Below, one piece after another: positions 12,652 through 59,700 of a stretch of 64,000 bases of DNA. The stretch is from Macrocystis pyrifera (lineage: Eukaryota > Sar > Phaeophyceae > Laminariales > Laminariaceae), in the NCBI GenBank assembly GCA_031763025.1, contig JASSKH010000003.1, positions 12,534,734 to 12,598,733 on the forward strand. The letters run 5' to 3'. A program made the translations under genes and the position numbers. The notes below the pieces were generated by a model that was not told the DNA's origin, searched no databases, and saw only the letters and a program-made list of their open reading frames with translations. Each line of letters begins with the position of its first letter. Position 1 is the stretch's first letter.

Positions 12652-13691
12652 TGTCTTTGTCTTCTTTTCGACACCGTGAGGCCTGCTGCTTCGAAGACAG
12701 TCACTACGACTGTCATCATTTTCGCGAGCCCTTCAGCCGACTTCGAGACAATTCCTGCGTCATCGACGTACAACATGCCCCATACTGCCCTTCGCACGCA
12801 CGCCAACGGCTCCTGCTCCTCCATTCCAACTACTCCAGCATCACTGAGTTGGACCAAATCCCTTACGATGGCTTCTTCATGGCTAAAGCGTACTAGTACG
12901 ACGTGCAACGCAGCAGCGAAAAATACGTTGAACAGTAACGGTGACAGCACACAGCCTTGCCGCAGCTCCTGCGTGACATCAAACCATTCCGAGTGCTCGC
13001 CGTCATCCGTACGCACGCGAGCCCGCATGCCATCGTGGAAATTATGGATAATTCTCAGCATCTTGGTTGGTACGCCAAAGCGTGTGAGTACCTCCCATAA
13101 CAGCTCTCGGTCGACAGAGTCGTACGCTTTCTGCAGATCGATAAAGGACAAGTACAGGGGGATTTTCCTCTGTCGTCTAAGCTCTTGCAACCGACGCACG
13201 ACGAACAACATATCAATCGTTGATCGTGCAGGGCGGAAGCCGCACTGTTCCTCCGGGAGTAGTTCCTCGGTCTCACAGTAGTTGCTGAGGCGGGACGCGA
13301 CGATTTTCAACAAAACTTCGCCTGCGTGGGCAACAAGCGAATTCCCTCTGTAGTTGTTGCAATCCGTTCGGTCCTTCTTTTTGTGAAGGACCTTGATGAT
13401 CGCATATTTCCATTGCTGGGGGACTTCTCCTGTTACCCAAACATTGACAAGGATGTTGTGAAAGCACTGAGCGAATGCGGGGTGGTCGATTTTCAGGAGT
13501 TCGGCCGGGAGACCATCTGGCCCGACAGCTTTCCAATTTGACATCCCCTTAAGTGCTTCCGTCATCTCGTCCATGGATGGTGTATCTCCGAGCAACAGTT
13601 TGAGCGGTCGTGGTAGCAAGAGGTCGATGATCATGGGATCGAGTTTAAGCGATTTGGTGTTCAAGGGTTTGTGCCCCCCCCCCCCCCCCAT
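12552..13691 (-). pseudogene. LINE reverse transcriptase
   Basis: A 379-codon frame with non-LTR RT motifs in order: [49 protein letters not shown] (palm Asp), [17 protein letters not shown], and the active site YVDD at 12759-12770. The sequence YVDDAGIVS is followed by GLTVS, as expected at the end of the palm. The last 40 or so residues are out of frame; the true continuation is in the 12651-12415 frame. The initial Gly run comes from a poly-C tract and is not a start. Confidence 0.92.
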
Positions 13692-14998: not shown

Positions 14999-15059
14999 GA
15001 CCGCACCCGTTCTTCCCCTTTACAGCCAGGGTGCGCACATTGTAGGTCGCTACCGCCAC
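14817..15059 (-). pseudogene. LINE endonuclease, N-terminal part
   Basis: Starts with ATYNVRTLAVKGK, the typical first strand and WNVRTL-like motif of APE endonucleases. It continues to ISLQETRR, whose Glu is the metal-binding residue of the family. The frame then loses homology near the join with the next piece, consistent with a small indel. It is the N-terminal 45 or so residues of the endonuclease that continues at 14998-13661. Confidence 0.75.
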
Positions 15060-23275: not shown

Positions 23276-23689
23276 TACCTTTGACGACGCGCTTCTGACT
23301 AGCCTTTGCACTCAACGCGCAGCATCATTAGTACCTGATTGATATTGCTGCTGTTTTGCTCCGGATATGCCAAGTAGTATGTGCCACTCATACATCATAA
23401 ATGCGGCGCAGATATCGAGAGAGACGGCGGGTGGCCTTGCGGTGCACGCCGTCGGCTGCCGATGCCTTTCCAGGCCGCGGGTGGTTCTCACTCGCTCAAG
23501 GGCACTACATCCATGCTGTGACACGTTTGGTGACGGCAGCGCACAGGCCTCAGTTCGAGTTCGCAATTGTTTGGAGTCTGCTGGGGTTACCAGGAGCGTG
23601 CATATCAATCAAGCGGTGGTTCGGTCGCCTCCGCGCCTACCCCGCGTGATGCATGACGCTTGGAACATGAAATATGCTCTCGGGGGTGG

Positions 23690-23825
23690 GGAGGTACGCA
23701 TGTCATGCATGGCCGTAGTCGTATGACCATAGAACCTCGCATCCTCATAGTGCCGGGATGGAGCACGTCGGGCTTCACCGACCAGGAAATCATTGCATGC
23801 AACAAGCGCGAAGCGCCCGGGGGTT
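23690..23825 (-). repeat. Dispersed repeat A, partial copy
   Basis: Minus-orientation copy of repeat family A: it contains the complement of the conserved CATACGACTACGGCCATGCA block next to GAGGTACGCATG, then GGAGCACGTCGGGCTTCACC and CAAGCGCGAAGCGCC. The 5' half is missing. Confidence 0.75.
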
Positions 23826-27100: not shown

Positions 27101-30100
27101 CCACGTCCCTGATCCCTGATAATTGCGGGGGTCACTCCCCATTAAGGGTATACAACTCGCCAACACTACAAAGACCGGTGACGCAACTAATAGGTACACA
27201 CTACTGCCTCGTAAAAAAAACAGGAAGGAATGATGACTGCTGCTCTCGTGATGGCCTGCGCGCCGGTCGAGGGTCTCCGTGTGCCGTCCTGCTGCCTTTC
27301 TTCGTGGTCACCACATCGCCTTAGCTCAATCGGCCATCTCCTTCCCACGTGCTCTCGTTGCCGGTCCCATCCACTCGGTTCCCCTTCTCACCCGTCCCTA
27401 AAACAAAATGCTCCTCTCACTGGCGGTTCTGATCTGAAGGAAAAGAATTCTCGCGCAGAGAGAGTTCAATCCGTCTCTTCTGCTCGTCGATGCTCTGTCT
27501 CCCTCCTCCTTCGTCGTCGAGTCCAACCTCCTGCCGGCGCAGTTAGACTGTGCCGTAATTTGGCCTGCGGTGGCGCCTGCCTCCGCGCACGGACATCCCG
27601 ATTGAACGTTGCTGCTCTGCTGCTGCAGCCAAAAAAAGACGCCCGAGTTATAGGCGTCCGTGCGTGACGTACCACGTACGACCCAACTTTACTGCCATGC
27701 TTAAGCCTCGCGGCCACACGCAGCACCGTACGATCTTTGATCACATATCCGACAAACATATTAGTACTGCTGTACTTTATTGGGCCGCCGCCGTGGACGC
27801 CCGTGCGTTGCCGTCCTCGTACTGCTACGAGTACGACTACTACTGTAATCATATGTTTACGTACCCGATACGCTCTATTGTATGTACGTACGAATACTCG
27901 TACTGAATGCATATCACGACGAGGGCGAACGGAGATATGGCTACAGAGCTGTGAGCACCGCAAAAGCTTCCGCGGCGCATCAGCTGCACTCATCCATGCC
28001 GTCAGCAGAGGCCTCCTGGGAGGCCTCAGTGTCAAAGAACATGCCAGAGGTCGTACCAGAGCCAGCAGTGCTCTCCGATGCTTTGTTATGTTGCGGGGCT
28101 GCTGCCACTTTGTTTTCGGATACAAAACGCCCTCTATGACCCCCGGTTGGAACACACACTATACCTATCTGTGGAAACGAAATATCTGTTACGGACGTAG
28201 GCCGTCGATCCTTGCAATGCTCAGGAAACCCATGTAGCTACCCAGAAGGACACAAGGCGGCATGTATCTTCCCTCGTCATCCCCTGTAGATTGATCAGTG
28301 ATCTCTATCGCGAGTATTCGTTGTATTTATCTTCGCTTGTCGCTCAAACAAAACAGATTTCATGTCATGCGTCATGGGAGAACAACGAGGTGGCATTTCT
28401 GGCGCGGCTTTAATTCTTGTAGTAGAATGGACGCGAACACGCCCCTCCCCGGCTGCGCGCCTGTAGGAACGCCTCCCCTCCCGGGAGATCTGAGGTCCGA
28501 GAACACCCTGCAGAACTAATCACTCAAAATAGATTGTCAGGTCGTGAGCACGACTCACAGACGGCTGACAGGGGAGTATTTTGGGGCGTAACCCCACGTC
28601 GAGGCCGCGCACGGGACACGTGCGGGCGGATCGGGGGGATCGGCGGCGCCATCCGGGGAACACGAGACCGGTACGCACCCCGGCGAAGAAACCGCGCGAA
28701 AAGACGGTCGGCGGCGGGAGAGATCCGCGAATGAGTGTCCTAAAAACACTATTGATACGTTAGGTATATTTATATACTGTAGGTTGGGTTGACGTCGGTT
28801 GACGACGACGCTGTAAAACACACCTCTCCCTCAGTGAGCTAGACAACCAGCATACCGTTTTTGTGTGTTGTTTCTTTGGCGGTCACCACGGCTGGCAGTC
28901 GAGATAGATCATTAGTGCGGGGTGGAGAGCCTTACCTCCACACGAAGAGAATAGTCGTGTCACGTAGTATGTGTATGGTAAGGCACCCACGAGACGGATA
29001 CATGATACACCCATTGCTGCCTGTGGAAGTGGTCACACCAGAAAGCGAATACATCCGTTCGAAGCTGTCATCAATTTCAAGTCCGCCTCACAGGCGGCTC
29101 TTCATAGGATGCAGCTTACCCTTCTTGTGACTTGCCCAACACCTCACGGCGCTTCGCACTTCGTGCAAGTAATGTCTGTTTGGTCGGTGAAAACTCGAAG
29201 CCCCCTTCGCTTCCCCCTGGGGGTAACTGGACTGTCATGCACGCTGATGGCATTCCTCTTAGAGCGATGGCGAGGCATCCTTTACGTGAGCCTTGCAACG
29301 CCATCTTCTCCGTCCGGGCTGCTGCTCGTGCCTCTCTCAACATGGCACTGGTACCTCGTGAAGCGTTCGTGTGCTATTGATTCCGATGTATACTGTGGTG
29401 GGTGTGTTCTCTCTGCCTGCCTCACGCGCCTTCAAAGCCCCGCGCAAGAACGTCACAGGAAGCAACCAGTGAGCGTTGTCGCTTGCTCGCCTGTTTCTGC
29501 TGTCCTCCCCCAAGTGGTACGTATCACCGTAGCTAAGCTGAAACCTTCCTCGCGGTGTACCTCGCCGAGCGTTGGCCGTACCCTCAAGAGCTCAATGTTT
29601 CTTCCTCGAAGGCCGCCCATTAGATGGTGGTGGGGCGTCGGACGGCGGAGAGAGAGGGCGGTGACTCATTTCCCTCCCAATCCAATTTTAGGCAAAAACT
29701 CGCCACCACAACACCGATTGTACGCGATCACAATTATCTGCGGTTCTCGAACAGCCGTTCCTTGTTTTTGGTTTGTTTTTGCGCGCATGTTACCCCCTCC
29801 TCCACCCCTCCCTCCCCTGGCGGCGCTCGATGCAAGCATCCGTCCATCCACCCACCAACCTAGTCGAACCCAACCCAACTCAACTCAATCCAGCCCAACC
29901 CAACCCCCACCCAAGCCCCGAGTGCCCTCGTACTCTCTCACGCCCCGGTCGTGCGTTTCCCAATCTCGCCAAGGTCCTTCGCACCGGATCGACGTCGGGC
30001 ATGTACCTGCCCCTGTCGCTGTCCATCACCGCCACGGCTCTCCTGCGGGCGGCCTACGCTAGTCAAATCGAGGACTGGTTCTTCGCGGTACCGCAGTGTA

Positions 30101-31284
30101 TCGGCTTCCTGGCGGGGGTCGCGCAGCTATCACTCTTTATGAAGTCAGTGCCTGAGCGAGCCGGTTCGGTTCGGTTCGGTTCGGTTCGGGTTCGGTTCGG
30201 TTCGGTTCGGTTCGGTTCGGTTCGGTTCGGATCGGTTGGGTTTGGTTAGGTTCGGTTTGGTTTTTGGTTCGGTTCGGTTCGGTTCGGTTCGGTTCGGTTC
30301 GGTTCGGTTCGGTTCGGTTCGGTTCGGTTCGGTTCGGTTCGGATCGGTTGGGTTTGGTTAGGTTCGGTTTGGTTCGGTTCGGTTCGGTTCGGCTCGGTTC
30401 GGTTCGGTTCGGTTCGGTTCGGTTCGGTTCGGTTCGGTTGGCCTGTCTAATTTTTTGTGACTGTCCTCGCTCGCAACCACGCCCCTCCCTCTCATTCGAC
30501 GCTGCCATCCATATGCGAGAAAATTCGCCTCAAAAACGATTCTTAGTACAATTCAGCTCACCCTTCATGCGACTCACCTAACACCTCGCTGCGCTCCGCA
30601 CCTGGTGGAGCAATGTCTGCCTAGTCGGTGAAAGCCCGACGTGCTCCGTCTCGGCGTTTTAGGGATGCGAGGGTCTATGGTCATACGACTACGGCCATAC
30701 ATGACGTGGGTAGAAAGTGGGTTCTGCTCCTTTTTTTGTTTTTGCCCAGCGTTTTTCCGTCGCGTGCGCGATGGTGGCTTTGCCGAACCGACAGCTTACG
30801 ACCTCCGTTTTCTGATAATTTTTGGGGCTAAAGCGTTACGTTTCAAAACCTTACTTTACAATACGGGGGGAGTCCAGTCTCATGCCGTTTCTTCCCCAAG
30901 CAACTGCTGTGCGCGCTGCTTCGGTGGAGTCTCGCGCGCGCGATGACGGACTACCCAAAAGTTTTGCACTTTTTTTATGGCGGCCTGATGAATGGCGTCA
31001 TTTCTCGAGAGGTATTTCTACGTGCAAGTGGTAAAATATACGGGGGTACGGCAGACAGCAACAATAACAGTCGCATCACCTCGCTGCCCCGTCCCACCCC
31101 ATCCCACCCAACCCAACCCCGCTCCCGCCGTTCCAGCCCCTTCCGAGCCTCCAAATTCCGATTATCCATTTAATCTCCAGTGGTCCTTTATTTTCTCCCT
31201 CTCAGGTTCGGCGTCGCCAATAACAACGAGCCAAACGAATCGGACCCGCTGATAGCGGGGACGGCGTCGTCGTGGCTGTCGTGA
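23982..31284 (+). CDS. SWEET (MtN3/saliva) sugar transporter, 3' exons
   Basis: Four exons are supported: 23982-24161, 25231-25360, 29974-30143 and 31206-31284 (stop TGA at 31282-31284). All junctions are GT/AG and the phases agree (2, 0, 2). SWEETs are seven-helix, bidirectional sugar uniporters of the plasma or vacuolar membrane. Visible family features are NGFGFLAGCAYSFVYL (helix 3), VYVFDVMLYASPL (helix 5, equal to the YASPL/YxxPL motif), VLRTGSTSGMYLPLSLS (helix 5-6 loop and helix 6), and VPQCIGFLAGVAQLSLF (helix 7, equal to PNxxGxxxGxxQL). The tail is short and acidic. Helices 1-2 are not securely found. The third intron (25361-29973) is 4.6 kb of repeats and the fourth contains a pentamer array. 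A generic PQ-loop protein is the alternative; the SWEET match is better. Confidence 0.82.
24300..25030. repeat. Intronic C-run and GTA/GCA triplet array
   Basis: Inside the SWEET intron 24162-25230: a C-run at about 24315-24330, then an imperfect (GTA)n/(GCA)n/(GTG)n triplet array at about 24810-25020. Val-rich and Ser-rich frames here are repeat translations. Confidence 0.8.
25231..25360 (+). CDS. SWEET exon: helices 4-5
   Basis: The acceptor GCGGCAG ends at 25230 and the donor GTGGGG starts at 25361. One base completes the Gly split from the previous exon. The exon then reads LMASSGFALDNMW and VPIVYVFDVMLYASPLVLFWK. The YASPL motif is the hallmark of SWEET helix 5. It ends in phase 0. Confidence 0.85.
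25361..28770. other. Large SWEET intron, left part
   Basis: No exon is recognised. The longest frames (229 codons minus at 27466-28155, 178 codons plus at 26788-27324) are basic, low-complexity and without motifs, and I consider them chance. A pair of T/C-rich tracts and scattered GTACT repeats (26290-26460) are the only visible structure. Confidence 0.5.
28774..29180 (+). repeat. Dispersed repeat A, diverged 5' copy
   Basis: Starts at GGGTTGACGTCGGTTGACGA and continues through CTGTAAAACA, GTGAGCTAGACAACCAG, TACCGTTTTT, GGCGGTC, AAGGCACCCA and CACCTCACGGCGCTTCGCAC. It aligns with the copy at 58.0-58.5 kb but lacks the 3' CATACGACTACGG end. It is the oldest-looking long copy and sits within the SWEET intron. 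Confidence 0.75.
29974..30143 (+). CDS. SWEET exon: helices 6-7
   Basis: The acceptor CGCCAAG ends at 29973 and the donor GTCAGT starts at 30144. It encodes VLRTGSTSGMYLPLSLS, ALLRAAYASQIEDWFF and VPQCIGFLAGVAQLSLFM, matching the second MtN3 repeat from the RTxS loop to the conserved QL of helix 7. It ends with two bases of a Lys codon completed at 31206. Confidence 0.88.
30150..30440 (+). repeat. (GGTTC)n pentamer array in SWEET intron
   Basis: About 50 copies of GGTTC (equivalently TTCGG), interrupted by two matching variant segments with GGATCGGTTGGGTTTGGTTAG (about 30230 and 30342). That shows a higher-order unit of about 110 bases. It starts six bases after the donor at 30144. The Arg-Thr-Glu-Pro-Asn and Phe-Gly-Ser-Val-Arg frames are translations of it. 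Confidence 0.95.
30495..30708 (+). repeat. Dispersed repeat A, 3' half copy
   Basis: Contains TTCGACGCTGCCATCCATATG, TCACCCTTCATGCGACTC, ACACCTCG, GTCGGTGAAAGCCCGAC, GTGCTCCGTC and GATGCGAGGGTCTATGGTC followed by CATACGACTACGGCCAT. The poly-C end is absent. It lies inside the last SWEET intron. Confidence 0.85.
31206..31284 (+). CDS. SWEET terminal exon
   Basis: The acceptor CTCTCAG ends at 31205. The first base completes Lys, then the frame reads FGVANNNEPNESDPLIAG and ends in WLS and TGA at 31282-31284. The hydrophilic, slightly acidic C-tail is typical of the family in position and length. A polypyrimidine tract (TTTTCTCCCTCTC) precedes the acceptor. Confidence 0.8.
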
Positions 31285-33172: not shown

Positions 33173-33332
33173 TGTACATTCGATGAAAATCGACGAGCAG
33201 TGGGAATGCTGAACCCTATGCGCGACAAAAAACAAAGGCACGTGCCGGGGGGAAGAAGGGACGACACCTGTGACCACGGCTTGTCCAGAAGATCGTTGAG
33301 GGTAAAACTTCCTACGAAGTTAGGCTGGTGTG
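33173..33332 (+). repeat. Direct repeat, partner at 48.61 kb
   Basis: About 160 bases (TACATT, GATGAAAATCGACGAGCAG, GGGAATGCTGAACCC, ACCACGGCTTGTCCAGAAG) recur at 48613-48772 in the same orientation at about 90% identity. It lies 5' of the Ty3/gypsy element. The pair may be terminal-repeat fragments of the element or another dispersed repeat. Confidence 0.75.
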
Positions 33333-33749: not shown

Positions 33750-36204
33750 ATGGTAAACGTCAAGGATGAGGAGGACGGCGTCGACTTCGGGGCCGACTCC
33801 TCCAAAGACGAAGCCGACCACCACTCGCCCGACGACGATATTTCCGCATCTCCTACAGACAACACTACCGACACCTACGCCCACCCGGACGTCTCACCCG
33901 ACACCCACGACCACCCAAACGTCTCGCCCGACATCCACGACCACCCGGGCGTCCCGGTCGACACCGTGACAGCCCACCACCCCGTCGCTGCACCTCCAAC
34001 CTCGGAGGCCGACACCACGACAGCCCACCACCCCGTCGCCGCACCTTCAACCTCGGAAGATGAGCTGACCGGGCCAGAGTTAAAAGAGTGGCTCACGACA
34101 CGCGCCAAGAAACGCTTGAGACGTGAGGCGCGACTATCTAGGTTGTTGAAAGAACAAAACGCCCGGGAAAGTGCGGCCATAGCGAAAGCAGAATTCGTCG
34201 TGGCATCTCTCCGGGTTCAGCACGCCCGGACCCTTGCCTCTCAAGCCCCCCCCCCCCCACTCCCACCCGCACAATTACGGCCGCTGCTCTCCCTGTCTCG
34301 ACTGCCTCTGCTGGCGCTTCATCCCCCGCCCCCACCACCTCGACCCTCGCCACCCCCGCGTCACTTCCACCAACTCCAGCACCACTGAGCTTTGTGTTGG
34401 AGTTTCACAGACATTGTGCTATTTAACACGTCGATTCGCCAATTGATATCGTCGCAAGACGTCCCCGAGGCCAGTCGGGCAGCTATCTCATCGGCTACAT
34501 CGGCCATCAAAGGCTTCTACCGCTCGAGTACCACCACCCTCCAGCAAGCCCTCGAGGCTCTCCCTGATGTGACCAACGAAACCGTCAGAATCAAGTTACT
34601 CAGGTTGGTGGCAATCTTAAGGACTTTTCATTCCTCGATTCACCACACATGCCTTCCGTCGCTGAGTACAACGCCTCTCGAGGCCAACGCCAACTGCCGA
34701 CGACGGGTTGTTCGGCCGGCCGCCTGCCGGTCAACCGCTGGCGCCCGGACGACGACCATGATCGTGACAGCAACAACAACAGCAGCAACTCCAATATCCC
34801 GACCCGCCGTACGTCCTCATCCAGCTCCACCACCCGCCCCCGGTCTGGCAACAGCGGAACCTCCTCCCGGCCCGAACAACGCCCACGGAAGCACAGTGAC
34901 GGCGACTATTTCTCCTCGTCAACTGACGAGGACTACATCTCGGGGGACAACAGGTGGGCGATCGCCTTCGGGAGAAGGACAATGCTAGCCCATCTGCCTT
35001 TCGCTTCCTCTTGCGTCTGCTGAGCACGCACTTCGACCACCGCGACCAAGGCCGTGCATTTGAGAAGCTTCAGGCGTTCGGAGTACCAACGTGCTCGGAG
35101 TATTCAATTTATTAGCCGGCTTTGAGGGAGTTGACGTCGGTGGTGCAAGGTTCTGAAAAGGTTTTTAAGCGTAGCGACGCCATGGTGTTAGAGGTAGTGC
35201 GTACCAGTGTTAGTAGAGAGTTTCCAGCCTTGACTCCGGCATTGTACCCGGGTGAATTGAAGACTGCGGTAGAGCCTTTCCCTTCGGTCTCGGCCATGTG
35301 GCGGGCTCATGAAGTATACGCCACGAACAATACATCTGCCACGTATGGCGAAACATATTTTTCTTTTATCTCTTCTGGAGGCCACACGACGTTTTCGTCG
35401 TCCCCGCCGTCATCGGCGCCTGCTCAGCAGACGCGTTTGCGCAACCATCCCAACCAGAATCAACAAGGCTCCCAACTCAACCCCTATGTCATGAACGGCT
35501 CTACGTCCCCAGACACTGGCCCTTTCACTCTGGGTTACAACCACTGGCCTCTCGAACACTTCGATGAAGTGTACATGGTGTCTATCACGTTTTCAACCAC
35601 CGACCCCCCTCTCCGGAGTGCTCTCCTTGACGCTACTGCTAGAGCGACTACTCTTGGCACATGGCGCGGCGTATGCCTCAACTGCGGCGGACAGGATCAC
35701 AGCGTCAAAACGTGCCAAAGCCCCTTAATAAACAAGTCAGGTGTTCTCAATCCCCGGCTCGGCCAGCTCAACGATGGAGGCTACGCTTTTCAACAGTGGC
35801 AACAACGTATGCTCTCATACCGTCCGGGACAACACGAACGCAATGTAGACCGGAACTCGAACTCTTACTTCAAACATTCCAACTCGAGGGGACACACCTC
35901 TGCCGGCAATTCCAATAACAAACGCCGGTCCAACTCCAATTCTAAGAACGAGCGCTCCCACGGCAACTCCAACCGTACTGCAGGCTCTCAGTGGACTAAT
36001 TACTCTCACAGCAACCAACAATCTCGGGAAAGTTCGCCACAACAACTCACTCCCCCCTCCCCTCAAGGACCTCCTTCATCTGCCCTCACCGTTACCGGTC
36101 CCACAACCCAGACCTCCACTCCCCCAGCTAACATGCGCCTCGGCCTTTCACAACACGGAGGTAGTCCAAACTCCGGGCAACCGGGCACCTTCCGTACTAA
36201 CTGA
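33750..36204 (+). pseudogene. Gag-like region with CCHC zinc knuckle
   Basis: The first part is acidic and rich in His-Pro-Asp repeats (imperfect 11-13 residue units, DTHDHPNVSP-like). The middle is a probable capsid region containing DQGRAFEKLQAFGVPT, which recurs in the fragment at 45.4 kb. Near 35.68 kb lies CLNCGGQDHSVKTC, a CX2CX4HX4C nucleocapsid zinc knuckle, followed by an Asn/Ser-rich tail. It is part of a fossil element; no single intact protein is claimed. Confidence 0.8.
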
Positions 36205-37110
36205 CCAGCCGATGGTGAAGAACTGCTCGCGACTTCAGCGGCACTACACGCGACCGCACCGGGTACCTCTATAGATTCTGGGACAGCGTTTTTTGCTGGA
36301 GCCGCTGGCTCTACTTACCCTCCCGATCCCCCCCCCTTCTTCTTCCCCTTCTAACCTATCTTCAATATCAACCACTCGATCTAGCGTTGACTCCCCTGTT
36401 CAAGCGGTTGGTTTGAGGTGTGGGCAGGAGGAGGTGAGCACACCGAGCACTCCCTCACCGCTCCCCTCGGTGTCCCCAGTCGATGTGCGACGCCGCGCCT
36501 TCCCAACATTGCCGAAATTCTGCGAACCTTGCCAATCTTGTGGGCGACAAGACAACAACGGCCAACAGCGGTATCCACTTCCTCCCCGGCTCTATTTCCC
36601 CCCCAGGGCCATCGACACTGATTCGTCTGCGTCCTCTGACCAACGATGTCATCGGCGCACGTCATCCAGCGTCCGCCGACCCCGAACAGCCCATACTTCG
36701 ACCTCCGTTGGTTCCACAGGTTCTCCCGGACTCGTAGCTGCCTGCCCCGTACTGACCACACCACTGTCCCTGGGCCCAAGGGACAGCTTCCCCGCGGACT
36801 CATCCGCGGAAGACTCGACCACGTCATCAAGATTATGCCAGGAGCCACCTGTACCGATACCCACACCCCGGTCACGAACTACTACAGGTACCACACGTTC
36901 TTCCGAGTTTCTCCCTCCTCCGCATACGTTAAATGCCGCTAGCAGGGACTCCAAGGGTGCTTCGTCACGAGCGTCACGCCGACACGTACATTCTCCCGGG
37001 GCCTCGACACGATCGACCTCATCCCGCACGTTTTCGGGGACCAAAGCCATCTTACCCATGCCTTCCCCGACAACGTCCCCCACCACGCCCCCCCCCCCCC
37101 CCCCCCCCCG

Positions 37111-37575
37111 ACCCTGAGTCCCTCTCAAATTTTATTTTTGTGGGACCAATCCTCGGTCTTCTCTCAGCGGCACCCTTCGACGTTCTCCGTCAACAACGAG
37201 CAATACAACTGTGCGGAACAGTACATGATGTCGGAGAAGGCCAAGCTTTTCGGCGACACAGCAGCTCGCCGGAAGATCATGTCCTCTCCGACTCCCGCAC
37301 CACAAAAACACCTCGGCCGCTCCGTCTCCAATTTTAGTCAAGAGCTTTGGGTACAGCATCGGTACGACATCGTTTTCAAGGGCAACCTCGCCAAGTTCTC
37401 GGCTCCCCCCTTACTACAACAACTCGTAGACACCGGAAACAAGTTCCTCGCCGAAGCAAGCCCTCACGATCTCGTCTGGGGCATCGGCTTCCGGTCTGAC
37501 GATACGCAAGCCTTACAACCTCCACACTAGTCGGGACTCAACCTGTTGGGCGACATCCTCAAGAAGATCCGCCAC
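37111..37575 (+). CDS. NADAR (YbiA-like) domain within the retroelement
   Basis: The frame shows family hallmarks in order: VFSQRHPSTFSVNN, YNCAEQYMMSEKAKLFGD (the conserved Glu and Lys of the active site region), HRYDIVFKGNLAKFS, TGNKFLAEASPHDLVWGIGF (the WGIG box), then a C-terminal GLNLLGDILKKIR-like segment. NADAR proteins are small N-glycosidases: E. coli YbiA cleaves early riboflavin intermediates, and NADARs paired with DarT toxins remove ADP-ribose from guanine in DNA. Here the domain sits between Gag and protease of a Ty3/gypsy fossil. Its role there is unknown; removal of ADP-ribose from nucleic acid is an inference. Confidence 0.85.
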
Positions 37576-37739
37576 CAGCTTGACCCCCCCCCCCACTCCC
37601 GCCCCCCCTCCGCGCCTCTTGCGTCTCATCCTCCGAAAAGGGGATTCACGAGATCAGTGCAACCGTTCCAGCTCCTACCGCGCCCTCGACACTGGACCAC
37701 CTGCTGCCCCCCTTCCTCCCTGAAGCAACTCCTCCGCAC

Positions 37740-38729: not shown

Positions 38730-39300
38730 GCACACAGCGGAGCACCTGAAGGGACTCACGAGTACTCGGTCATTTCAGCCCCTGGTACCCCTTGGGACTC
38801 GCGAGTACTCAGTCATTTCAGCTCCTCGTACCCTTGGGGGACTCGCGAGGCCTGAGTCATTTCGGCGGCTCGTACCCTTGGGACTTGTGAGCTCTCAAGT
38901 CATTTCAGCACGTCGTACTCTTGGGAGTGAGTACTTCAAAATGACTAAAGTACTCGCGAGTCCATGACCGAGTCCCAATGGCTGGTACTGTACTCTGACG
39001 ACCTTCGCAGTTTTGTTTTGAAGGGAGATAACATGATAACACGAAAAAAGGAAAACGTTTGCGAGTTTTTCGTTTGACCCTTGCGCTCGGTACTGCTGTA
39101 GAGTACTCCGTCTTTTCAGCCTCTGATTGGTACCCTTGGAGGCGAGTGCTCAGTGATTTTAGCTCCCCTCGCTCTTGAGACTGGCGAGGACTCTGTCGTT
39201 TCAGCTCCTGCTACCCTGGGGACTCGTTTAAGCTTGTGCCCCTTCCGACTCGCAAGTACTCAGCCGATTCAGCTCCTCTGGCCCGTGGGACTCGCGACCG
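38730..39300. repeat. Minisatellite inside the retroelement
   Basis: Units of about 45-50 bases, GGGACTCGCGAGTACTCAGT followed by CATTTCAGCTCCTCGTACCC-like sequence, are repeated about six times at 38745-38960. They recur in weaker form at 39095-39300 around 130 bases of unrelated sequence. It separates the protease from the RT region and has no role in any known retroelement polyprotein. Confidence 0.8.
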
Positions 39301-39309
39301 TCTGACTGC

Positions 39310-40860
39310 AGACCAACGGACAAGCTTCCTCCGCCTCTGAGACCGGCTTCCGCTACTCCTTCGCGAAGTCTCCTTCGACCTCCGCGGTTCTGGCTGGTCC
39401 CCTTCGGTCATCACAGCACTGGGGGAAGTTCTTTGCGAGTTCCCCGATGTTTTCTCCACGTCCAAAACCGACTTCGGCTCGTGCTCCCTTTTTCTGTTCA
39501 AGATTTCCATCCCCTCGGAGAGCGCACCCGTCTTTTCCCGTCCTTTCCGCATCAACCCTATCCTCGCCAAGCAGGCCGATGTTGTCCTCGGCCAATATCT
39601 GGCTGCCGGCATAATCCAGCACTCCACTTCTCTATACGCCAGCCCTATGGTCGCCATTCCCAAGAAAGACGGCAAGGTTTGAATAACCGTTAACTACAAA
39701 AATCTCAACGCCATCAGCTCCCTGGGCCAACTGCCCATCCCTCGCGTTGACGAGGTCCTCGACTCCCTCGGAAAAGGTCGCATCTTCTCCCTGTTTGATC
39801 TCGTGTCTTCGTTCCACCAAATCACCATCGATAAGGATACCATACCCTTGACTGCCTTCTGCACGCCCACTCGACTCTTCGAGTGACTCGTCATGCCTCA
39901 AGGAAACAGCACCGTGCCTGGTTGGTTCGTCGGGGTCATCAACGAGGTCATCAAAGACCTTGACCGCGTAGCGGCCTACCTCGACGACATGATAATTTTC
40001 GACCCCGACCCCGCGGCCCACGTCACCAATGTCCGCTCCCATTTCGGACGCCTCCGAAAACACAACCACAAACTCTCCCCTTCCAAAGCTAAGCTTGGCG
40101 TTACCAACGCCGACTATTTGGGACACACCATTTCCTCCTCCGGTGATAGCCCTAACGCCGACAAGGTTGCCGCCCTTACCCAGATGCCCTCGCCTACGAA
40201 CACCAAGCAAGTGCGCTCAGGAATTTGGACACTACCGTAAATTCCTGAAGAACTTCTCCACTCGGCTCCGACCCATTAACGCCCTTTTCAAGCAAGGCGT
40301 TAAATTCGTTTTCACCTCGGAAATGGAAACTATCGTTCGCCAGATCCTCCACAAACTCGCTACCCCTCCGATCTTGGTATAATCGGACTGGGATGCCGTC
40401 GCCGACCACTCCCGCCCTTTCCGCCTCTACTGCGACGCCAGCAACGACGGTTTTGGCGCGATTCTCGAACAAGAACAACCCGACGGTTCCGTCCGTCCCA
40501 TCGTCTTTATCAGCCGCACCACTCTCGACAACGAACGATCCTGGACCCCCCTCGATCTTGAAGCTGGTAGCATCGTTTGGGTCGTCAAACGCCTCCACCG
40601 CCGCCTCTGGTCCACCAAGTTCCGCATCTACTCTGACCATAAGACACTCGAGAGTATCACTAAAGTAGGCGAACACAACGCTCGCGTCCAACGCTGGCTG
40701 GAGTTCCTCTCCGCCTACTCCTACACCCTGAAGTACCGAACAGGCTCCGCTAATGGCAACGCCGACTTCCTCTCTCGACTCCCACAACAAGCGACCGATC
40801 TCGACCGCACCGGACCCAACCGCCTCACTACTCCCGACACCATCGGCATCTACCTTATCC
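39310..40860 (+). pseudogene. Reverse transcriptase and RNase H region
   Basis: RT motifs include PMVAIPKKDGK, LFDLVSSFHQI, MPQGN and the active-site YLDDMIIF (about 39.98 kb), then KAKLGVTNADYLGHTIS, typical of Ty3/gypsy. RNase H follows with FRLYCDASNDGFGAIL, a Glu-containing helix and YSDHKTLESI, then RWLEFLSAYSYTLKYR and NADFLSRL. Part of a fossil element. Confidence 0.9.
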
Positions 40861-41059: not shown

Positions 41060-41400
41060 GTCCAAGATGCCGCCGCTGGATCGTCTCGCAGCCTTCCCGC
41101 CGGCCCCCGCTTTGCTCAAGATCCCACCGCTGGATCGCCTCGCAGCTTTCCTCCCGGTCCCCGCTTTGCTCAAGATACCGCCGCTGGATCGCCTCGCAGC
41201 CTTCTCGCCGGCCCCAGCTTCGCTCAAGATAACAGCGCTAGATCGCCTCGCAGCCTCCCCCCGCCGCCGCCCGCTTTGCTCAAGATAATATCGTTGGATC
41301 GCCTCGCCGCCTTCCCGCCAGTCCCCGCTTTGCTCAAGATACCGCCGCTGGATCGTCTCGCAACCTTCTTGCCAGCCCCCGTTCTGCCCAAGACCCTACC
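41060..41400 (+). repeat. 63-base coding-phase repeat between RNase H and integrase
   Basis: Five to six units of about 63 bases, matching a 21-residue unit PPLDRLAAFPPAPALLKI-like in one frame. The period is a multiple of three, so expansion kept the frame when it arose. Confidence 0.85.
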
Positions 41401-42199: not shown

Positions 42200-43920
42200 A
42201 AACTCGCACTACTACACCGCAGCCCCTCACATCGCCACCTCGCATTTACGTTCCAATGTTGATGCGACCGTGGGTCCTACACACATGCCACTCCACCACC
42301 TCTTGCCACCTGGGTGTTGCCCAGACACTCAGCATGTTTATGTGCTTCTACTGGTGGATTGGCATGGACATTTCCACCCGCTGGTAGCTCCGCCGCTGCC
42401 TCAAGTGTCAGGCGCGAAAGTCTTCGCCCCAAACAATCGTTGGTCCACCCTCTTCCTACCGCTCCCCAATGGACCCGGTACTCTCGTCAGCGTCGACTAT
42501 TTCGGGGCCTTACCCATCACGCCTCGGGGAAACGCCTACATCCTCCTTTTCACCGACCGTTTCAGCCGCCGCGCCGACATGTACGCCACCACTGAGACTG
42601 AGTTCACCGCATCCGGCACGGACGACATCCTCGTTGATCGCTACATCCCTCTCTGAAGATGCCCCGTCACTCTCCTTTCCGACAACGGTCTTCAATTCTG
42701 CGCCAAACTCTCCCGCGCCCTCTATGAGCGCCTCGGCATCGACAAAATCTCCACGAGTTCCTATCACCATTGCACCAACGGCGGCGTCGAACGCGTCAAC
42801 CACACCATGACCTTGAAGCTCGCCATGGTCGGAAACGAACTACTACACGACTGGGACTTGCATCTCCTCCACTTCGAAAGCGCCGACAACAACTCCGTCA
42901 GTGCCGCCGCAGGCTAGCCCCCAATGAAGTACACATTGGCCGACTGCTTCGCCTCCTCCTCACCGTGTTTGACTCTCCCAGCATTGGCGGACATCAAAGC
43001 CTCAACCGGGACCAGCTCGCTTACATCGACCTCGCCACTTCTCGCCAGCAACGCGCCTACCGCGCCGTCCGGGAACTCCGCGCTGTCTACGTCTCGCGCC
43101 TCGACAGCCGCAACGCCCCCCATTATGGACGCCCTCCGTCTTTCCCCTATGTTCTCTGTCGACGGTTGGGCATGGATCTAAGTAACCGCTGCCACTATTC
43201 GCCAAGGCGCCAAGAAAGGCACCGAACCGCCGTTCTCAAGACCAAACTCTCCTTCAACTGGATAGGCCCGTTCAAGATCCTTGCCGTGGGTCCAGCACCA
43301 GCCTCAGCCGTTCCGGATGGACGGCCCCTTCACGACCAGCTCCTGTACTTCGACCTTCCCCCGGACATGCCGGGACGTGACTTCGAACACCGCGTGTCCG
43401 TTCTCCGCTGCAAGCCCTGCTGGAACCCCGACGACATCGACGATCTCCCCAAACACCTACCGGCCGACCTGACCAAGTACGTTCTCAACTCCTTCTCCAC
43501 CAAGTCCCCACCCTTCCACGTCACCTTCGACGACATTTCTCCACCGACCGAACGCCTCGAGGTTGACCAGATCTCGAGACACCAACTCGTTCGTGGCCGG
43601 GGAGGCGTTCTCGCCGTGATGTACGAAACACGCTGCGCCGGACTCCTTGGGCCTTCTTGGAAGCACGAACGAGACCTACAACTCCACCGATCCCACATCC
43701 TCCGCTGTTGGTCGGGCACCCCTTCACGGGGCCGCCAGACCAAACGTTTATACCGCCAGGTGTGCATCGGGGCCGCTCACCGCGAATTATCGCGGTCCCG
43801 GGCTGATCAAGATTACACTCCTCCCATTCCTCTACACCACATCACAGAGCGCGACCTAACGATCCTGGTACCTTCAGCGTCATCAGGCCGGAGGACTAGC
43901 ACGCGGTGTACTACTTAATG
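42200..43920 (+). pseudogene. Integrase and chromodomain-like tail
   Basis: HLGVAQTLSMFMCFYWW corresponds to the HHCC zinc-binding region of integrase. VDYFGALPITPRGNAYILLF is the first catalytic-core strand. Later KTKLSFNWIGPFKIL matches the GPF/Y module of the C-terminal domain. It is followed by ERLEVDQISRHQLVRG and HERDLQLHRSHILRCW, which resemble a chromodomain. Part of a fossil element. Confidence 0.8.
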
Positions 43921-44640: not shown

Positions 44641-46010
44641 TGTCGTTTGTCTTGAACAGCAGTATCTTCGACCCCCTTCTTTCGATTTTGTGATGTCTAA
44701 GTAGCCATCTCTATATCGTCGTGGGATCTGCATCTAGGACTAGTCAGGATGGGCTAACGTGATAGAGTACCTTGATTTGTAGTAAATAGACCAACCATCA
44801 GTAGGGGCCGTTAGATATTAAACTTCCAGTTGGATCTTACTCCTTTTACCGTCTGGATTAAGATATTCGTATTTGTAGTACCGGTACGCAGGCTAGTATT
44901 CCTTCGTACACGTACCCCGTTTACCGTCTGGAATAAGATATTTGTTTTTGTTAAAAAGATACGCAGGCTATTACGGGGGACCATAGTAAATAGGACCAAA
45001 TATTGTTAGTAAATATAGGTAAATATATAGGTTGTTATGTATACCATAGGTCCTATGAACTATGGACCCCCTTAATAGTATCTAAGTAGCCGAGGAGACG
45101 GAGACGTACGTACGTGGTGTATCCATACGTCAGGTTTAAGGGGTGTGTTGTACTATTGAAGTTGAGGGTGATGCATGCACCCTTGCCAGTAGATTATAGC
45201 CGGTTGAAGTCAGATGATACTTCTGGCTTCGAAAACAATCTGCCTCACCCCCCCTTCCCTCTCGCTTGTCTCACTTGCCCCTTCGAGCAAACCTCACATC
45301 AATAATATAAGAGAACATCACGAACTGGGTCTGAGTTTGGCCAAGCACAGACACCTGTGTCACACTTCTTCTGTGGATCGTCACCTCTTGGCACCCTTGC
45401 CCTCTCTCCACATTGTGATCGACCACGGCGACCAAGGCCGTGCATTCGAGAAGCTTCAGGCGTTCGGAGTACCAACGGGCACGATGTATTCTATTTATTC
45501 TCGGGCTTTGAGGGAGTTGACGAGCCAGAAGTATCATCTGACTTTAACCGGCTATAATCTATGGCAAGGGTACATGCGTCACCCTCAACTTCAATAGTAC
45601 AACACCCCGTAAAACCTGACATATGGATATACCACGCGCGTACATCTCTGTCTCCTCGACTACTTAGATACTAGCATGCGTATCGTTTAGCAAATAAATA
45701 CAAATATCTTATTCCAGACGGTAAACGAGGTACGTACGTGTACGAAGGAATACTAGCCTGCGTACCGGTACTACAAGCACGTAATTTCTTATTCCAGACG
45801 GTAGAAGGAGTAAGATCCAACTGCAAGAATAATATCTAACGGCCCCTACTGAAGGTTGGTCTATTTACTAGCCAAGGTACTCTATCACATTAGCCCGCCC
45901 TGAATAATCCTAGATGCAGATCCCACGACGACATAGAGATGGCTACTTAGACATCAGAAAATCGAAAGAGGGGGAAGATACTGCTATTCAAAACAAACGA
46001 CTACAAACCA
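44640..46010. mobile_element. Foldback element with a Gag-related loop
   Basis: A left arm (about 44640-45235) and a right arm (about 45525-46010) are reverse complements at roughly 85-90% identity, with extra sequence in the left arm near 44990-45070. Each arm holds two copies of TTATTCCAGACGGTA (one left copy has GGATTAAG). The loop of about 290 bases encodes HGDQGRAFEKLQAFGVPT, related to the Gag region at 35.03-35.12 kb. It is a fossil: a long-inverted-repeat structure that has captured or derives from a virus-like element. Confidence 0.8.
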
Positions 46011-48612: not shown

Positions 48613-48772
48613 TACATTGGATGAAAATCGACGAGCAGTGGGAATGCTGAACCCTATGCGCGATAAAAACTAAAGGCACGTACCGGGGGGGAGAAGGGGC
48701 GACACTTGTGACCACGGCTTGTCCAGAAGATCGCTGAGGGTAAAACCTAAACCTCTTACGAGTTTAGGCTGA
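48613..48772 (+). repeat. Direct repeat, partner at 33.17 kb
   Basis: Second copy of the 160-base block at 33173-33332. An (AC)n run (48784-48800) follows. Confidence 0.75.
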
Positions 48773-50170
48773 TGATTGAAAAAAACACACACACACACAC
48801 TTGAATGAAATATTTCGACTCCTACCTGTTTGTGGTTCGCTTTTCGAAGTTGAATTGAATACCTATCCTCCTGCTTGTGGCCCGCTTACACCTCCACTCG
48901 AATTCCATGCGACCTGTTTGATTTCAATGACCAGAAGCAGCAAGCCGCTCCTCGACCTTTCGTGCAGAAACAAAACTCTTGGGAAATCAGTTCGCGATTC
49001 GGATCCTATCACGCCGCCGCTACGTCACATATATATGTCATGCCTGTGTGTTACATATTTTCTACCGTGGCCGCTTGCTCGCTAGCACGAGTACGTACAC
49101 CGACAGCATTTCGCTTTGCTTCGTAGCCAGCTCTGGCACTCGCTTGTTCTCAACCTCTGCGTGATTCACGATAAGATTGCACAAATTACCGTGCTTATCG
49201 TGGTAGACGCTCATCCGCGATACACCATTGCAAAGCATCCACAACGAGAGTTCACGCAGGCTGTCACTCCCTCCTAAGAGCTTGGGCGTGTCAGCTATAT
49301 GTATATGGATTTCCGTCGCTCACGGCCTGGCGTCAATCGTCAGGGGTCAGTTGAGGGGGGAAACATGAACATCTAAATGCTGAGCTTCTCAAAGAGGGGG
49401 GGCGGCTTTCGTTTGGTTCACGAAAGAGTTATTTTTTCGCGCAAGTTCTAGTTGATGTAACGACTACTACAGTACCACAGGGTACTATGTCATGTTTTAT
49501 TCGGACGGACGGACGGAGAAGAAAACGTTTAATGTTTTTGGAGACCCCGTGTTGGTCGTGTTCAGAGTTCATTGCGGCCCACACGACGCCGACCAAGGCC
49601 GTCTGTGCAGAAGGCAGCAGCAATCGCTGCTGTCTGTGAAGCGCTCGGACGCGCCGCCTGGTACAAAATGTGGCTGCCGTTTCCGCGAGTCTCGCCGACT
49701 CCTCCTGTGCCTCCTCATATCCAATTGTTACCGTTTTCGCGACCATTCCGCCAATAAAAGGTGAGACAAGGACGACGTGCTTGAGTCGTGCGCGTGCCTG
49801 GGCTAAAAGGGGGCTCATTTTAGTCTAATATATATAGCAAGTCTACCAACAGGACAAATAGCCCGCCAATGGTGCAATCGATAGGCTTGTTATTAATATG
49901 GTACCTGGTAAGTATCAATCGTATACCTGGTGTATGTTGCTGCGTGTGGTAGCATGTTACTGCTGTATCAACCTCTATCAACCGTGTTAACAAGCGCTCG
50001 AGTCTGAACGAAGCACGCGTATACAGCTCCACCGCTGCGAGTACTACTACTATAGCACCACCATACGCATATGATAGAGGCACTGGCTACTCAGTCCGAT
50101 TACGTGGAACTCCAGCCGGGGGTCAACACCGCCGTACCCGACCCCCCGGCGAACACGGTCAACCAAACAA
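48773..50170. other. No confirmed gene
   Basis: A donor-like GTGAGACAAGG at about 49760 follows a locally GC-rich segment (49570-49757) that is open in several frames on both strands. None is recognisable as a protein family. The 129-codon minus-strand frame at 49429-49818 is alanine-rich with no motif. Confidence 0.3.
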
Positions 50171-53095: not shown

Positions 53096-53296
53096 CGCCG
53101 TCCATCCCCCCATCCTCCTCAGATAGACAATGATTCCGAGCGCCGTTCGACCGCGGAACAGAACACTCTGCTCCACCTGCGCCACAGTAACTGAGGACGT
53201 AGCTCACAAGCACAAGGCCCCGAAGTCTAAGCCTCCAGTCCGCTACATAGCGCACCCGCTGTCTCCGCAATTGGCCACAACGGAAAACGCTTAAAC

Positions 53297-53560
53297 TAAT
53301 TCGACGCTGCCATCCACATGCACGAAAGCCTGCCTTACAAGCGGTTCTTCGTAGGGGATGGAGCCCACCCACCCACCCACCCTTCATGCAACTCGCCCAG
53401 CACCCCAAGGCGCTTCGCGCTTGGTGCAAGTAATGTCTTGTCTGGTCGGTGAAAACACGACATGCTCTGTCCCGGCTTTGTATGGATGTGAATATCTATG
53501 GTCATACGACTACAGACATGAGTACACGCACCCTCCTACTTCAAGCACTACCGCCACCAC
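53297..53560 (+). repeat. Dispersed repeat A, 3' half copy
   Basis: Begins near TTCGACGCTGCCATCCACATG and runs through CTGCCTTACAAGCGGTTCTT, CACCCTTCATGCAACTCGCC, GGCGCTTCGCGCTTGGTGCA and GTCGGTGAAAACACGAC to CATACGACTACAGACATGAGTACACGCACC. A Thr/Pro triplet run follows. Confidence 0.88.
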
Positions 53561-54945: not shown

Positions 54946-55352
54946 TACACGACGGCGACAGCGAAACCGCCTCCTCCGCGTACAAACCGACGCGCGGCCG
55001 TCCTTATCGGGGGGGGGGGGGAGGGGTATTCTGAACCGCTTGCTGCGCGGCGAGGTCCTCCTCCTCGCCACAATAGTTTTGCGCAACCGAGATATATTAT
55101 GTTGTGTGTGAAGTGTGTGTATTCGTTATGCTGTTTGGTACCACTGCCGTAAATTGTACCATTGTCCCTTCGTCTTCTGTTTTATTTCACTGTCCCTGGA
55201 GGAAAGGGTAGACCACTGAGAAGCCAAGAATCATGGAAGCCACCTGCAGCGCGGTAGAAGGGACGGTGGGAGAGGGGGACGGGGTTGGCGAAGGAAAGGT
55301 CAATTAATGTGCGAGAGTAAACACCTAGGTTGTCGCTCGTGTTGAGAGTTGG

Positions 55353-55760
55353 GGGGAGGGGGGGGTACTCATTATCACGCATGACCGTAGTCGTATGTCC
55401 CCACAATGCTGGGACGGAGCACGTCGGGTTTTCACCGACCAGGCAGACGTTGCTTGCACTAAGCGCGAAGCACCGTGAGGTATCCGGCGAGTCGCATGCA
55501 GGGCGAGCTGCACCCTACGAAGAACTGCTTGTTCGGCGGATTTGCATATGGATGACAGCTTCAACCAGTTGATCGAATTTCCGGTGTGGTAACCTCCAGA
55601 GACAGCAATGGGAGTAATACTTCACTGTCTCTTGGTTGCCTTACCGTAAACACCACGTGATACGACCATTCCCCTTGTGCGGAGTAAAGGTTTTTGACCC
55701 TGCACAAATGATCTAACTCGACGACCAGCTGTGGGCGACCGCCAAAAAAAAAACGGTACG
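55353..55760 (-). repeat. Dispersed repeat A, near-complete copy
   Basis: Minus-orientation: starts at GGGGGGGTACTCATTATCACG, with the complement of CATACGACTACGGTCATGC. It runs through GGGACGGAGCACGTCGGGTT, CAAGCGCGAAGCACCGTGAG, TTTGCATATGGATGACAGCT and CTGTGGGCGACCGCC to a short A-run and CGGTAC. It lacks the outermost 5' CTAGACATCCAG part. A copy of repeat B abuts it at 55757. Confidence 0.9.
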
Positions 55761-56758: not shown

Positions 56759-59700
56759 CTATGTATTTTAGTTGGGGGCGGGGGGGGGGGGGGGGGGATG
56801 GGAGGGGGATTATATTTTTGTCCGAAGGGGGAGGGGCAGGGGGAAGGGGGGTTGATATGCAAGCCGCGACGATAGCCATACGTAGCCGGCGGGCAGTGGC
56901 CATGAGCACGATCACAAAGCGAAATAGGCACCACTACCATGTGCTGGTACCGAGCAAGCGCGATGATTGCCCACTTAAGAAAAGGCAGGTAAAACAGGAG
57001 AAACAGATACACGCCACAGGCACACGCGCATACAAATTCCCATACAAACGCGCACATACACGAGCACACAAACACGCACGCGAAGGCGCAGACAAAAAGC
57101 GCCCACAAACACGCAAACAAACGTGCACACAAACGCGAACACACGCGCGAACACAAACGAGCGAGCAGACGCGTACACACACGCCCACACGCACGCCCAC
57201 ACAAAGGCCCACACAAAGGAGCACAGAAACGCCCATGAGCACGGGCATACAAAATCACGCAAAAACACGCAAAAACGTGCGAGTAAACACGCGCGCATGT
57301 ACACATGCACACAACGCACACGTCCCAAAATACGCGTCTCGTCACTTAGATGGCATTCGGAACTTCCGACATAGACGATGGACTGAAGACGAAAGGAGGG
57401 CTATGAGCAGCTTCAACGCGGGATAAGAAGTACCCAAGACTGGCGCTACGGCGCGGTGAAAAACATCAGCGTCAGAAAACACAAACAAAAACACACAAAT
57501 AGATGAAAAAAAAAACAACCTGTGCACGCTTCCTTCGAGAATACTGGGGAGGGGGTGGGGGACGGGGAGAGGAGAATCTGTTGGGTACTGTAGCCCCCCT
57601 TACTGTAGCCTCGTTCATCGTTCGCGTCGCGCTCTCAAAACGTTGTCGAGTCGATGCCAGCGGAAACAACAAAAAGACTACAACAGCAACAACAAAACAG
57701 ATCACAGTGCTGACCAGCACCGAGCACCGAACCATGAAACCTCGACCTCTCTTGCCAGGCGCACTGCTGTACACCCACGCGTCCGTCGTACACAGCCTTA
57801 ACAAAACATAAAACATGGAGAAACAAAAACGCCCTCCTTGGGCACGTGTGTTCAAGACAAACAATACAAAAAAAGGCGCCGCGAGCGCGGGGGCGGGGGA
57901 GGTGCTGCCGTATTTCGATTACAGCAAATCGATCGCACCCCCGCCGCTCTTTCCTCCCCATACCCCCCCCCCCTATTTATATATATACATATTATATATG
58001 GGTTGGGTTGGCGTCGGTTGGCAACGATACTGTAAAACATGCCGCTCACTACGTGAGCTAGACATCCAGGGTACCGTTTTTTTTTTTTTTTTTTTTGGCG
58101 GTCGCCCACAGCTGGTCGTCGAGTTAGACCATTTGTGCGAGGTAAAGAACCTTTACTCTGCACAAGGTAATTGATCGTATCACGTAGTGTTCAAGGTAAG
58201 GCACCCAAGAGGCAGTTGCATAGTACTCCCACTGCTCTCTGGAAGTGGCTACACCGGAAATTAAACTAACTCATTAAAGCCGTCATCCATATGCAAGTCT
58301 GCCTCACAAGCGGTTCTTAGTAGGATGCTGCTCACCCTTCATGCGACTCGCCGGACACCTCACGGCGCTTCGCGCTTGGTGCAAGCAAAGTGTGCCTGGT
58401 CGGTGAAAACCCGACATGCTCCGTCCCGGCACTGTACGGATGCGAGGGTCTATAGCCATACGACTACGGCCATGCATGAGATCGAGTACATCTCTCCTAT
58501 CGAGTACACCCCCCCCCCCCCCCGTCTCCCCATCCCTTCCTCAATTTCTCATACCCCCTTCCTAGGTGTGTCTATTGGGAGTAGGAACGCAGCTCCGTCT
58601 CGAAAGGGATGCGTGGTCAATGGTCAAATGACCAAGGCAAGCAAGAAACGAGTACGCCCCCCCTCTCTTCCCCTCTCTCTCCCATCTTTTCCCCCCCTCC
58701 AACAGCCAAATGACTAGGCAAGCAAGAAATGAGTACCCTCCGCCCCCCTCCACACATGAGTTCACCCCCCCCTCCTCCACACATAAGTACACCTCCCCAT
58801 CCCCCCCAATCCCTCCCCCCCCCCCCCCCTCCCCATCCTTCCACCCTCCACCCTCCGTCCACCCCCTCTTTCACTCACCGCGCCAGCTCAATCGGGATTA
58901 TCTTGGAAGTCACGGACATGATCACTCCCTCGTGCGCCTGGAGGGCGACGAACACCAGGCTGACCCCGAGGATGTACTGCGTTTCCGTGTACTCGAATGG
59001 AGTCCAGGAGAAGTCTACCATGATGATGCAGCCCAGCCCGGCAAGCACCGCGAGCAACTGGAGCAACACCCTTCAATCGCAGCCCGGCAGGGGGAGGGGA
59101 GGGGAGTTGGGGGGAGGGGAAGGGAAGAAGGGATTGAGGAAGGGCAGGGAAACGTCGACGGGAGGTGCGGGGGCGTAGAGGAAGAGAGGGGGGGGTGGGA
59201 AGGGGGAAGGGTGAGATCAAGGTAAGGGGGGGGGTGTGAAGGGGGTTTCAGAGGGCAAGAAGGCTTGAGAGGGAATAAAAAGAGGGGAAGGAGGACAACA
59301 GCCAATTCGCAAAAAAAACACACGTTTGACTAGTGTACCACAATACCCCGTACGCACTGTGTACGAATAGGTTGTTATACCCGTAAGGGAGATCCGCGGA
59401 GTACGAGCATCTACGCGCGGAATACTTCACGACTACGGGAAGAGGTCCCCCGGCGTCAGTCCCATGTCGCATTTCGTAATCGTCGTTCTTATGCTTCCCT
59501 CTTTTTGGGCACACGAGAAATTCCCGTGGTATCTGGCTCGCTCGCTACTCAAGAGCAAAAACATAACAACTTTGCATCAACCAACCGGAAAAAAAAGACA
59601 CACACAAAACACAAAACACACAACGATCAACCAACAGAAAAAAAGACAAGCACAAAAACACAAAACGCACAACGATAGACTACTTCCCATCTCTGCCTAC

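Follow-up and report, generated by a model that had tools for sequence, protein, structure and literature searches.

What is a NADAR domain doing at the beginning of the polyprotein of a retrotransposon? The question is raised by a 64,000-nucleotide stretch of the genome of the brown alga Macrocystis pyrifera (hereafter the window), in which a first-pass annotation made from the letters alone had called such a domain from three motifs. All three lie in frame 1 (NCAEQYMM at 37207-37230, GNLAKFS at 37381-37401, and VWGIGF at 37474-37491), and a Pfam scan confirmed the call: PF08719 (NADAR) matched 37144-37506 with E = 2e-35 and 122.9 bits (cut-off 35.1), spanning positions 8-138 of the 163 in the profile, which is most of the domain and places it in the NADAR superfamily. 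In the PDB, the NADAR structure 8bau, a separate chain of 189 amino acids, matched the domain at 1e-17. The NADAR-coding stretch (37111-37575) comprises 155 codons with a stop near its end. The YbiA family is defined by a catalytic Glu in the last strand, which is Asp in the BC4488 type and His in the phage type (PMC11543638, PMC11125620); the window has Glu at this position (the E125 equivalent) and thus belongs to the YbiA family. The domain lies between a Gag zinc knuckle and a protease motif, as the annotation had placed it, within the following series of features.

35674-35715, plus strand: Gag-type zinc knuckle CX2CX4HX4C, read directly as a motif; its ORF has no Pfam match
37144-37506, plus strand: NADAR domain of the YbiA type, N-terminal part of Pol (PF08719, PDB 8bau, and residue mapping)
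37528-37530, plus strand: in-frame stop within the NADAR, ahead of its last helix (from the reading frame)
37534-37578, plus strand: C-terminal helix of the NADAR in the same frame past the stop, GLNLLGDILKKIRHQ; by eye it is similar to the end of the domain in P0001 and in P0099
37917-37934, plus strand: aspartic protease motif LLDTGS, about 114 codons past the NADAR end and in another frame
38751-38925, plus strand: 43-nt tandem repeats between protease and reverse transcriptase (repeat scan)
39656-40132, plus strand: reverse transcriptase, interrupted in frame by stops at 39680 and 39884 (PF00078, E = 2.2e-21 when stops are read as X)
40404-40718, plus strand: RNase H (PF17917, E = 8.5e-31)
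42250-42369, plus strand: integrase zinc-binding domain (PF17921, E = 3.5e-05; 24.3 bits, just under the cut-off of 25.5)
42468-42599, plus strand: remnant of the integrase core (rve, E = 0.0051, well below the cut-off)
42917-43858, plus strand: C-terminal part of Pol, with the stretch that is chromo-like in the relatives (identity to P0010)

The order protease, reverse transcriptase (RT), RNase H, and integrase is that of a Ty3/gypsy Pol, with the protease represented by its motif alone. The RNase H ORF is 68% identical to the Ectocarpus protein P0001 over 162 residues, and the C-terminal part of Pol (42917-43858) is identical to P0010 at 185 of 314 aligned positions (59%). The integrase scores weakly in the window; in relatives it is recognized clearly (PF17921 in P0010, E = 4.9e-14). 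The zinc knuckle and the NADAR share a frame, with stops between them. Because of several stops (37528, 38130, 39680, and 39884) and frame changes, the element is a dead copy, and the word "fossil" in the first-pass annotation was apt. A run of 22 C bases (37089-37110) adjoins the NADAR domain, so homopolymer errors may account for part of the frame changes nearby. No LTR pair flanking the element was recognized in self-comparisons of the window, which we read as the lost ends of an old copy. A direct repeat (33175-33330 and 48613-48774; 162 aligned bp, 88% identity, 15.4 kb apart) flanks the element and is a candidate LTR at most. Tandem repeats of 54 nt (18 codons) occupy 41063-41393, within Pol between RNase H and integrase.

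Several other repeats lie in the window. An inverted repeat at 44642-46001 has arms at 44642-44973 and 45669-46001 (87% identical) and at 45076-45228 and 45523-45673 (91%). Between the arms lies 45419-45522, which is 90% identical to 35033-35136 on the gag side of the element; the whole may be a foldback element with a fragment of the retroelement inside. A LINE-like remnant on the minus strand (12555-15019) matched RVT_1 with E = 7e-29 and, weakly, an endonuclease (E = 0.00016, below the cut-off). Dispersed repeat pieces of up to ~445 bp, roughly 72-93% identical and in both orientations, were found at 23682-23817, 28770-29198, 30491-30704, 53246-53520, 55351-55753, 58049-58490, 60472-60916, and 61082-61318. 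The Rfam and tRNA scans gave no matches.

A search with the RT part yielded 88 proteins, comprising 80 close relatives (P0010-P0089) and eight distant ones (P0090-P0097). With a profile built in this analysis, the NADAR was detected at E < 1e-3 in 25 of the close relatives (weakly in one, P0032, at 5e-4) and in none of the distant ones. Most of the 55 NADAR-negative close relatives start shortly before the RT. When only the close relatives with an RT match starting at residue 450 or later are considered, 15 of 18 have the NADAR. As to the three exceptions, P0023 and P0031 also miss the canonical protease motif, and P0037 has the motif preceded by 193 residues, the first part of which looks out of frame. 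The protease motif LD[ST]GS was found in 15 close relatives, 12 of which have the NADAR, and in these 12 the distance from the NADAR end to the motif is 114-120 residues (~114 codons in the window). The sequences of P0021 and P0080 begin 67 and 65 residues, respectively, before the motif. P0010, the nearest relative by RT (80% identity), has 242 residues ahead of the RT, too few to reach the NADAR site. That related elements share the domain at the same place, on which the first-pass annotation had staked its reading, is thus borne out.

All close RT relatives with a species name, and P0001, are from Ectocarpus sp. CCAP 1310/34, most rows being without a species; the best of the named proteins in the RT search, P0016, has 65% RT identity to the window. 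In the RT tree (86 rows including the window; rows matching the query at fewer than ~150 positions were excluded), a 42-row group (SH-aLRT 99) takes in the window together with the labelled Ectocarpus rows, a 35-row group (SH-aLRT 100) contains P0034, and P0046 falls outside both. NADAR-bearing rows are present in both major groups of close relatives, and for this reason the domain is probably ancestral to the element lineage. The cluster P0034 (1616 amino acids, with NADAR) represents 415 member sequences, which suggests a recently spread family. Because its 35-row group holds no Ectocarpus-named row, at least one more host besides Ectocarpus probably carries the lineage. The window element is very probably a dead copy of a Ty3/gypsy lineage in which Pol begins with a YbiA-type NADAR. 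In Ectocarpus, a conserved YbiA-family NADAR at the N terminus of Pol has been described for one of four Gypsy lineages (Dinatale et al. 2025, Genome Biol, PMC12477816). The locus had been put forward as a candidate for an undescribed system; since that paper already reports the architecture, this claim falls, and the window holds a dead copy of an already published kind.

The C-terminal end of Pol deserves a separate description. The Pfam chromodomain profile had no match in the window or in five relatives, and a profile of the C-terminal region of four relatives matched chromodomains weakly (E = 0.15-0.37); the corresponding region is present in the window. The Pol C termini of P0010, P0016, P0019, P0036, and P0046 contain two short conserved modules, the first of which lies at ~43.55-43.68 kb in the window. 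The best PDB matches of the module profiles were chromodomains (best E = 0.15) and the Tudor domains of PHF19 (best E = 0.015), followed in the latter search by weaker non-Tudor matches; the signals are weak but consistent. Among the Ectocarpus Gypsy lineages, chromodomains were reported in three and a Tudor domain in the fourth (PMC12477816). A tandem of chromodomain and Tudor domain at the Pol C terminus would be new, if real.

The conservation of the domain was compared in six hand-picked proteins having both NADAR and RT. Mean pairwise identity was 54.7% for the NADAR, close to the 59.4% of the RT, and 49.4% for the protease region, and the linkers of the same proteins gave 27.5% (NADAR-protease) and 44.4% (protease-RT; 10 of 15 pairs). 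Residues were mapped to 8bau, which we take to be the Phytophthora nicotianae NADAR because the residue numbers in PMC11543638 fit at an offset of two; the roles of the ADP-ribose-site residues follow section 12 of that paper. The window retains nine of the 11 ADP-ribose-site residues, including Glu43, Lys50, and the YbiA-type Glu125. Tyr84 is replaced by Phe and Asp86 by Gln, at positions that are also variable in 101 other database NADARs. Among element NADARs with a residue at the respective position, Glu43 is kept in 18 of 19, Lys50 in 25 of 26, and Glu125 in 23 of 25; in a few of them a catalytic residue has been lost. The 26 element NADARs counted comprise 20 of the Ectocarpus type and six of the window type, and the element status of P0200, P0098, P0099, P0100, P0102, and P0111 was assigned by kinship, not by an attached RT. 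NADARs under 70% profile coverage were left out of the trees and residue counts (194 of 214 kept), and the counts cover 186 of the 194, eight fusion proteins being set aside. At the protein level, the identities and residue counts are evidence that the element NADAR is constrained. For the window-type relative P0099, AlphaFold gives a confident, mainly helical model (pLDDT 86.0, pTM 0.79).

All eight fusion proteins (P0002-P0009) join the NADAR to PF03747; seven have PF10021, and two have PF01661. We take these families to be ADP-ribosylglycohydrolase, PARG-like, and macro domains, respectively. By their predicted domains the proteins are multi-eraser fusions, and one of them, P0006, represents 194 sequences.

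ADP-ribosylation of guanine in DNA is undone by NADARs (PMC11543638). On guanosine RNA, every NADAR representative assayed took off the ADP-ribose, and none of the macrodomain and ARH enzymes tested did so (PMC11833690). A counter-defence role has been proposed for NADARs in RNA-virus polyproteins (PMC9503650). Here, we propose a possible mechanism for the element. The NADAR would be made as the opening portion of Pol, and the protease would then release it or leave it attached. In this way an active NADAR N-glycosidase would be packaged with the element RNA and would remove ADP-ribose from guanine bases of the element RNA or cDNA. The marks may come from host or symbiont ADP-ribosyltransferases, and, if left in place, they would block reverse transcription. 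That the element NADAR erases guanine ADP-ribosylation of nucleic acids is offered tentatively. The three far-reaching relatives without the NADAR, the few element NADARs short of a catalytic residue, and the other roles put forward in two papers (PMC12477816, PMC9503650) count against it. As a joint explanation of the locus, a dead NADAR-Gypsy copy together with a packaged guanine ADP-ribose eraser appears to us the best one and moderately probable.

The NADAR may instead serve the RNA metabolism of the element or act on soluble ADP-ribose by-products, not on guanine ADP-ribosylation. An RNA-processing role is the suggestion of the authors who reported the domain (PMC12477816), the window NADAR is YbiA-type by its Glu and not of the DarT1-linked type, and NADARs outside DarT1 operons can act in vitro without shielding cells from DarT1 (PMC11125620). 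However, the clearance of guanosine RNA by every representative tested (PMC11833690) speaks against this alternative, as does the fact that we saw no assay favouring another substrate for an element NADAR, and we consider it rather unlikely. It is unlikely, too, that the targets are proteins of the host or the element (Gag, integrase, or chromatin proteins), from which the domain would clear ADP-ribose and so help evade a PARP-like host restriction. The polyprotein NADARs of animal RNA viruses were proposed to act on host macromolecular ADP-ribose adducts (PMC9503650), but the literature passages considered here name no protein substrate of NADARs; the chromatin-reader-like C termini of the element relatives would fit this alternative weakly. 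A third alternative, in which the NADAR is non-catalytic and either binds ADP-ribose or NAD or serves Pol structurally, could draw on the few element copies in which a catalytic residue is missing, but nearly all element NADARs that reach the catalytic positions keep the residues, across two well-separated RT groups, and this reading is quite improbable.

Where the domain came from was addressed by searches and trees. The search with the short NADAR gave 170 proteins, and the best 120 of the 170 were examined. The best nine (P0098-P0106; 65-91% identical) are short pieces, as are some later rows, and all seven of the nine whose sequences were inspected look like further element copies. The remaining named rows, among the matches listed, are bacterial, except for P0132 of the limpet Patella caerulea. 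P0104, at 88% identity, carries the label of a Paracoccaceae MAG, and we infer that it is algal DNA in a bacterial bin. In a tree of 71 hand-picked rows out of the 194 and in a smaller tree, respectively, the Ectocarpus-type NADARs form a clade with supports of 98/82 and 96/96, and the six window-type rows form one with 100/100 and 100/99; other NADARs stand unresolved between the two clades in both trees. The nearest non-element kin in the NADAR trees are bacterial-type NADARs, and for this reason the capture suggested in the first-pass annotation is plausible. In search of donors, genomes were scanned with an alignment headed by P0118, a standalone NADAR of bacterial type that lies near the element NADARs, and 433 relatives were found. 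Among the best 80 of the 433 (79 loci), the top matches are from Planctomycetota and Myxococcota, and the named bacteria nearest P0118 are Ca. Uabimicrobium, Planctomycetaceae, and Myxococcota such as Nannocystis. Fifty of the 79 loci entered a quick tree and 16 entered the smaller tree. In the former, P0196/P0198 and the fusion proteins are the neighbours of the window type (84), and Myxococcota and Planctomycetota those of the Ectocarpus type (89), neither placement being strongly supported.

Two sources were considered and set aside. A named bacterial donor was not adopted, the nearness of the Ectocarpus-type NADARs to Planctomycetota and Myxococcota having weak support in the trees. A viral source of the whole NADAR-RT arrangement was rejected, as none of 60 IMG/VR NADAR loci matched the element RT or integrase by tblastn. 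In 16 IMG/VR loci found with the Pol alignment, the match is confined to the NADAR region, RT in the flanks being outside the scope of that comparison.

The window-type NADAR could be a second, independent capture or a replacement at the same site. The two types form separate groups with other NADARs between them, a quick tree of the 194 rows requires three label changes and keeps the types apart without strong support, the 50-locus quick tree places them beside different kin, and the RT tree nests the window with the Ectocarpus elements. However, one joint element clade was not rejected in two AU tests (p-AU 0.609 and 0.513), the likelihood being equal or slightly higher when it was held, the RT-like order of the NADARs was not rejected in the smaller tree (p-AU 0.187), and both types occupy the same Pol position. 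A second capture seems to us quite improbable, and a single capture would be the simpler reading of these sequences. A one-off insertion of a host gene into the window copy, for which one might cite the 55 of 80 close RT relatives showing no NADAR, is hardly credible and was rejected, since most of these begin too near the RT, the domain recurs in 15 of the 18 far-reaching relatives, and its distance from the protease is fixed.

A bolder proposition would be that a lineage of LTR retrotransposons bears and packages a guanine ADP-ribose eraser of its own, on which it depends, for its RNA or cDNA, as a counter-defence against a host or symbiont defence that ADP-ribosylates nucleic acids in algae, and that bacterial NADARs were captured more than once at the same Pol site; we regard it as doubtful. 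If the NADAR is an active eraser required for transposition, ADP-ribosylation of nucleic acids would be an algal defence against retroelements. To our knowledge, such a defence has never been shown in algae.

The locus can be compared with several known systems. The P. nicotianae NADAR (taken as 8bau), from an oomycete, is identical to the window at nine of 11 ADP-ribose-site residues, but it is a separate chain and not part of a retroelement Pol. The DarT1-NADAR and YarT-YbiA systems (PMC11543638, PMC11125620) share the domain family and the catalytic scaffold with the window, which has the YbiA-type Glu, but they are standalone bacterial antitoxins beside an ADP-ribosyltransferase; the check for a transferase in the window consisted of Pfam scans of the element ORFs and some other ORFs. 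In nidoviruses, hepe-like viruses, and picornaviruses, the NADAR is in a polyprotein beside the replicative polymerase, as in the window, but this is an RNA-dependent RNA polymerase, and the likeness is drawn from the description (PMC9503650). The Tx1 LINEs of Crassostrea gigas are also retrotransposons with a YbiA-family NADAR, located in ORF1; they are non-LTR elements, their NADAR is divergent according to the authors, and they too were compared by description (PMC12477816). The closest system is the Gypsy-12_Ec32 lineage of Ectocarpus, which has a YbiA-family NADAR at the Pol N terminus and the Ty3/gypsy order (PMC12477816). The window likewise has the NADAR at the N terminus of Pol ahead of the protease, and its RT groups with those of NADAR-bearing Ectocarpus elements in the 42-row set, the sequence of Gypsy-12_Ec32 itself being outside the comparison. 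It differs from that lineage in being broken and in having an RT 65% identical to that of Ectocarpus P0016. Being dead, the window copy contributes one more member of the lineage. Relative to the parts of PMC12477816 considered here, the present analysis adds this copy, the fixed spacing between NADAR and protease, the residue-level counts, and the occurrence of the NADAR in both RT groups.
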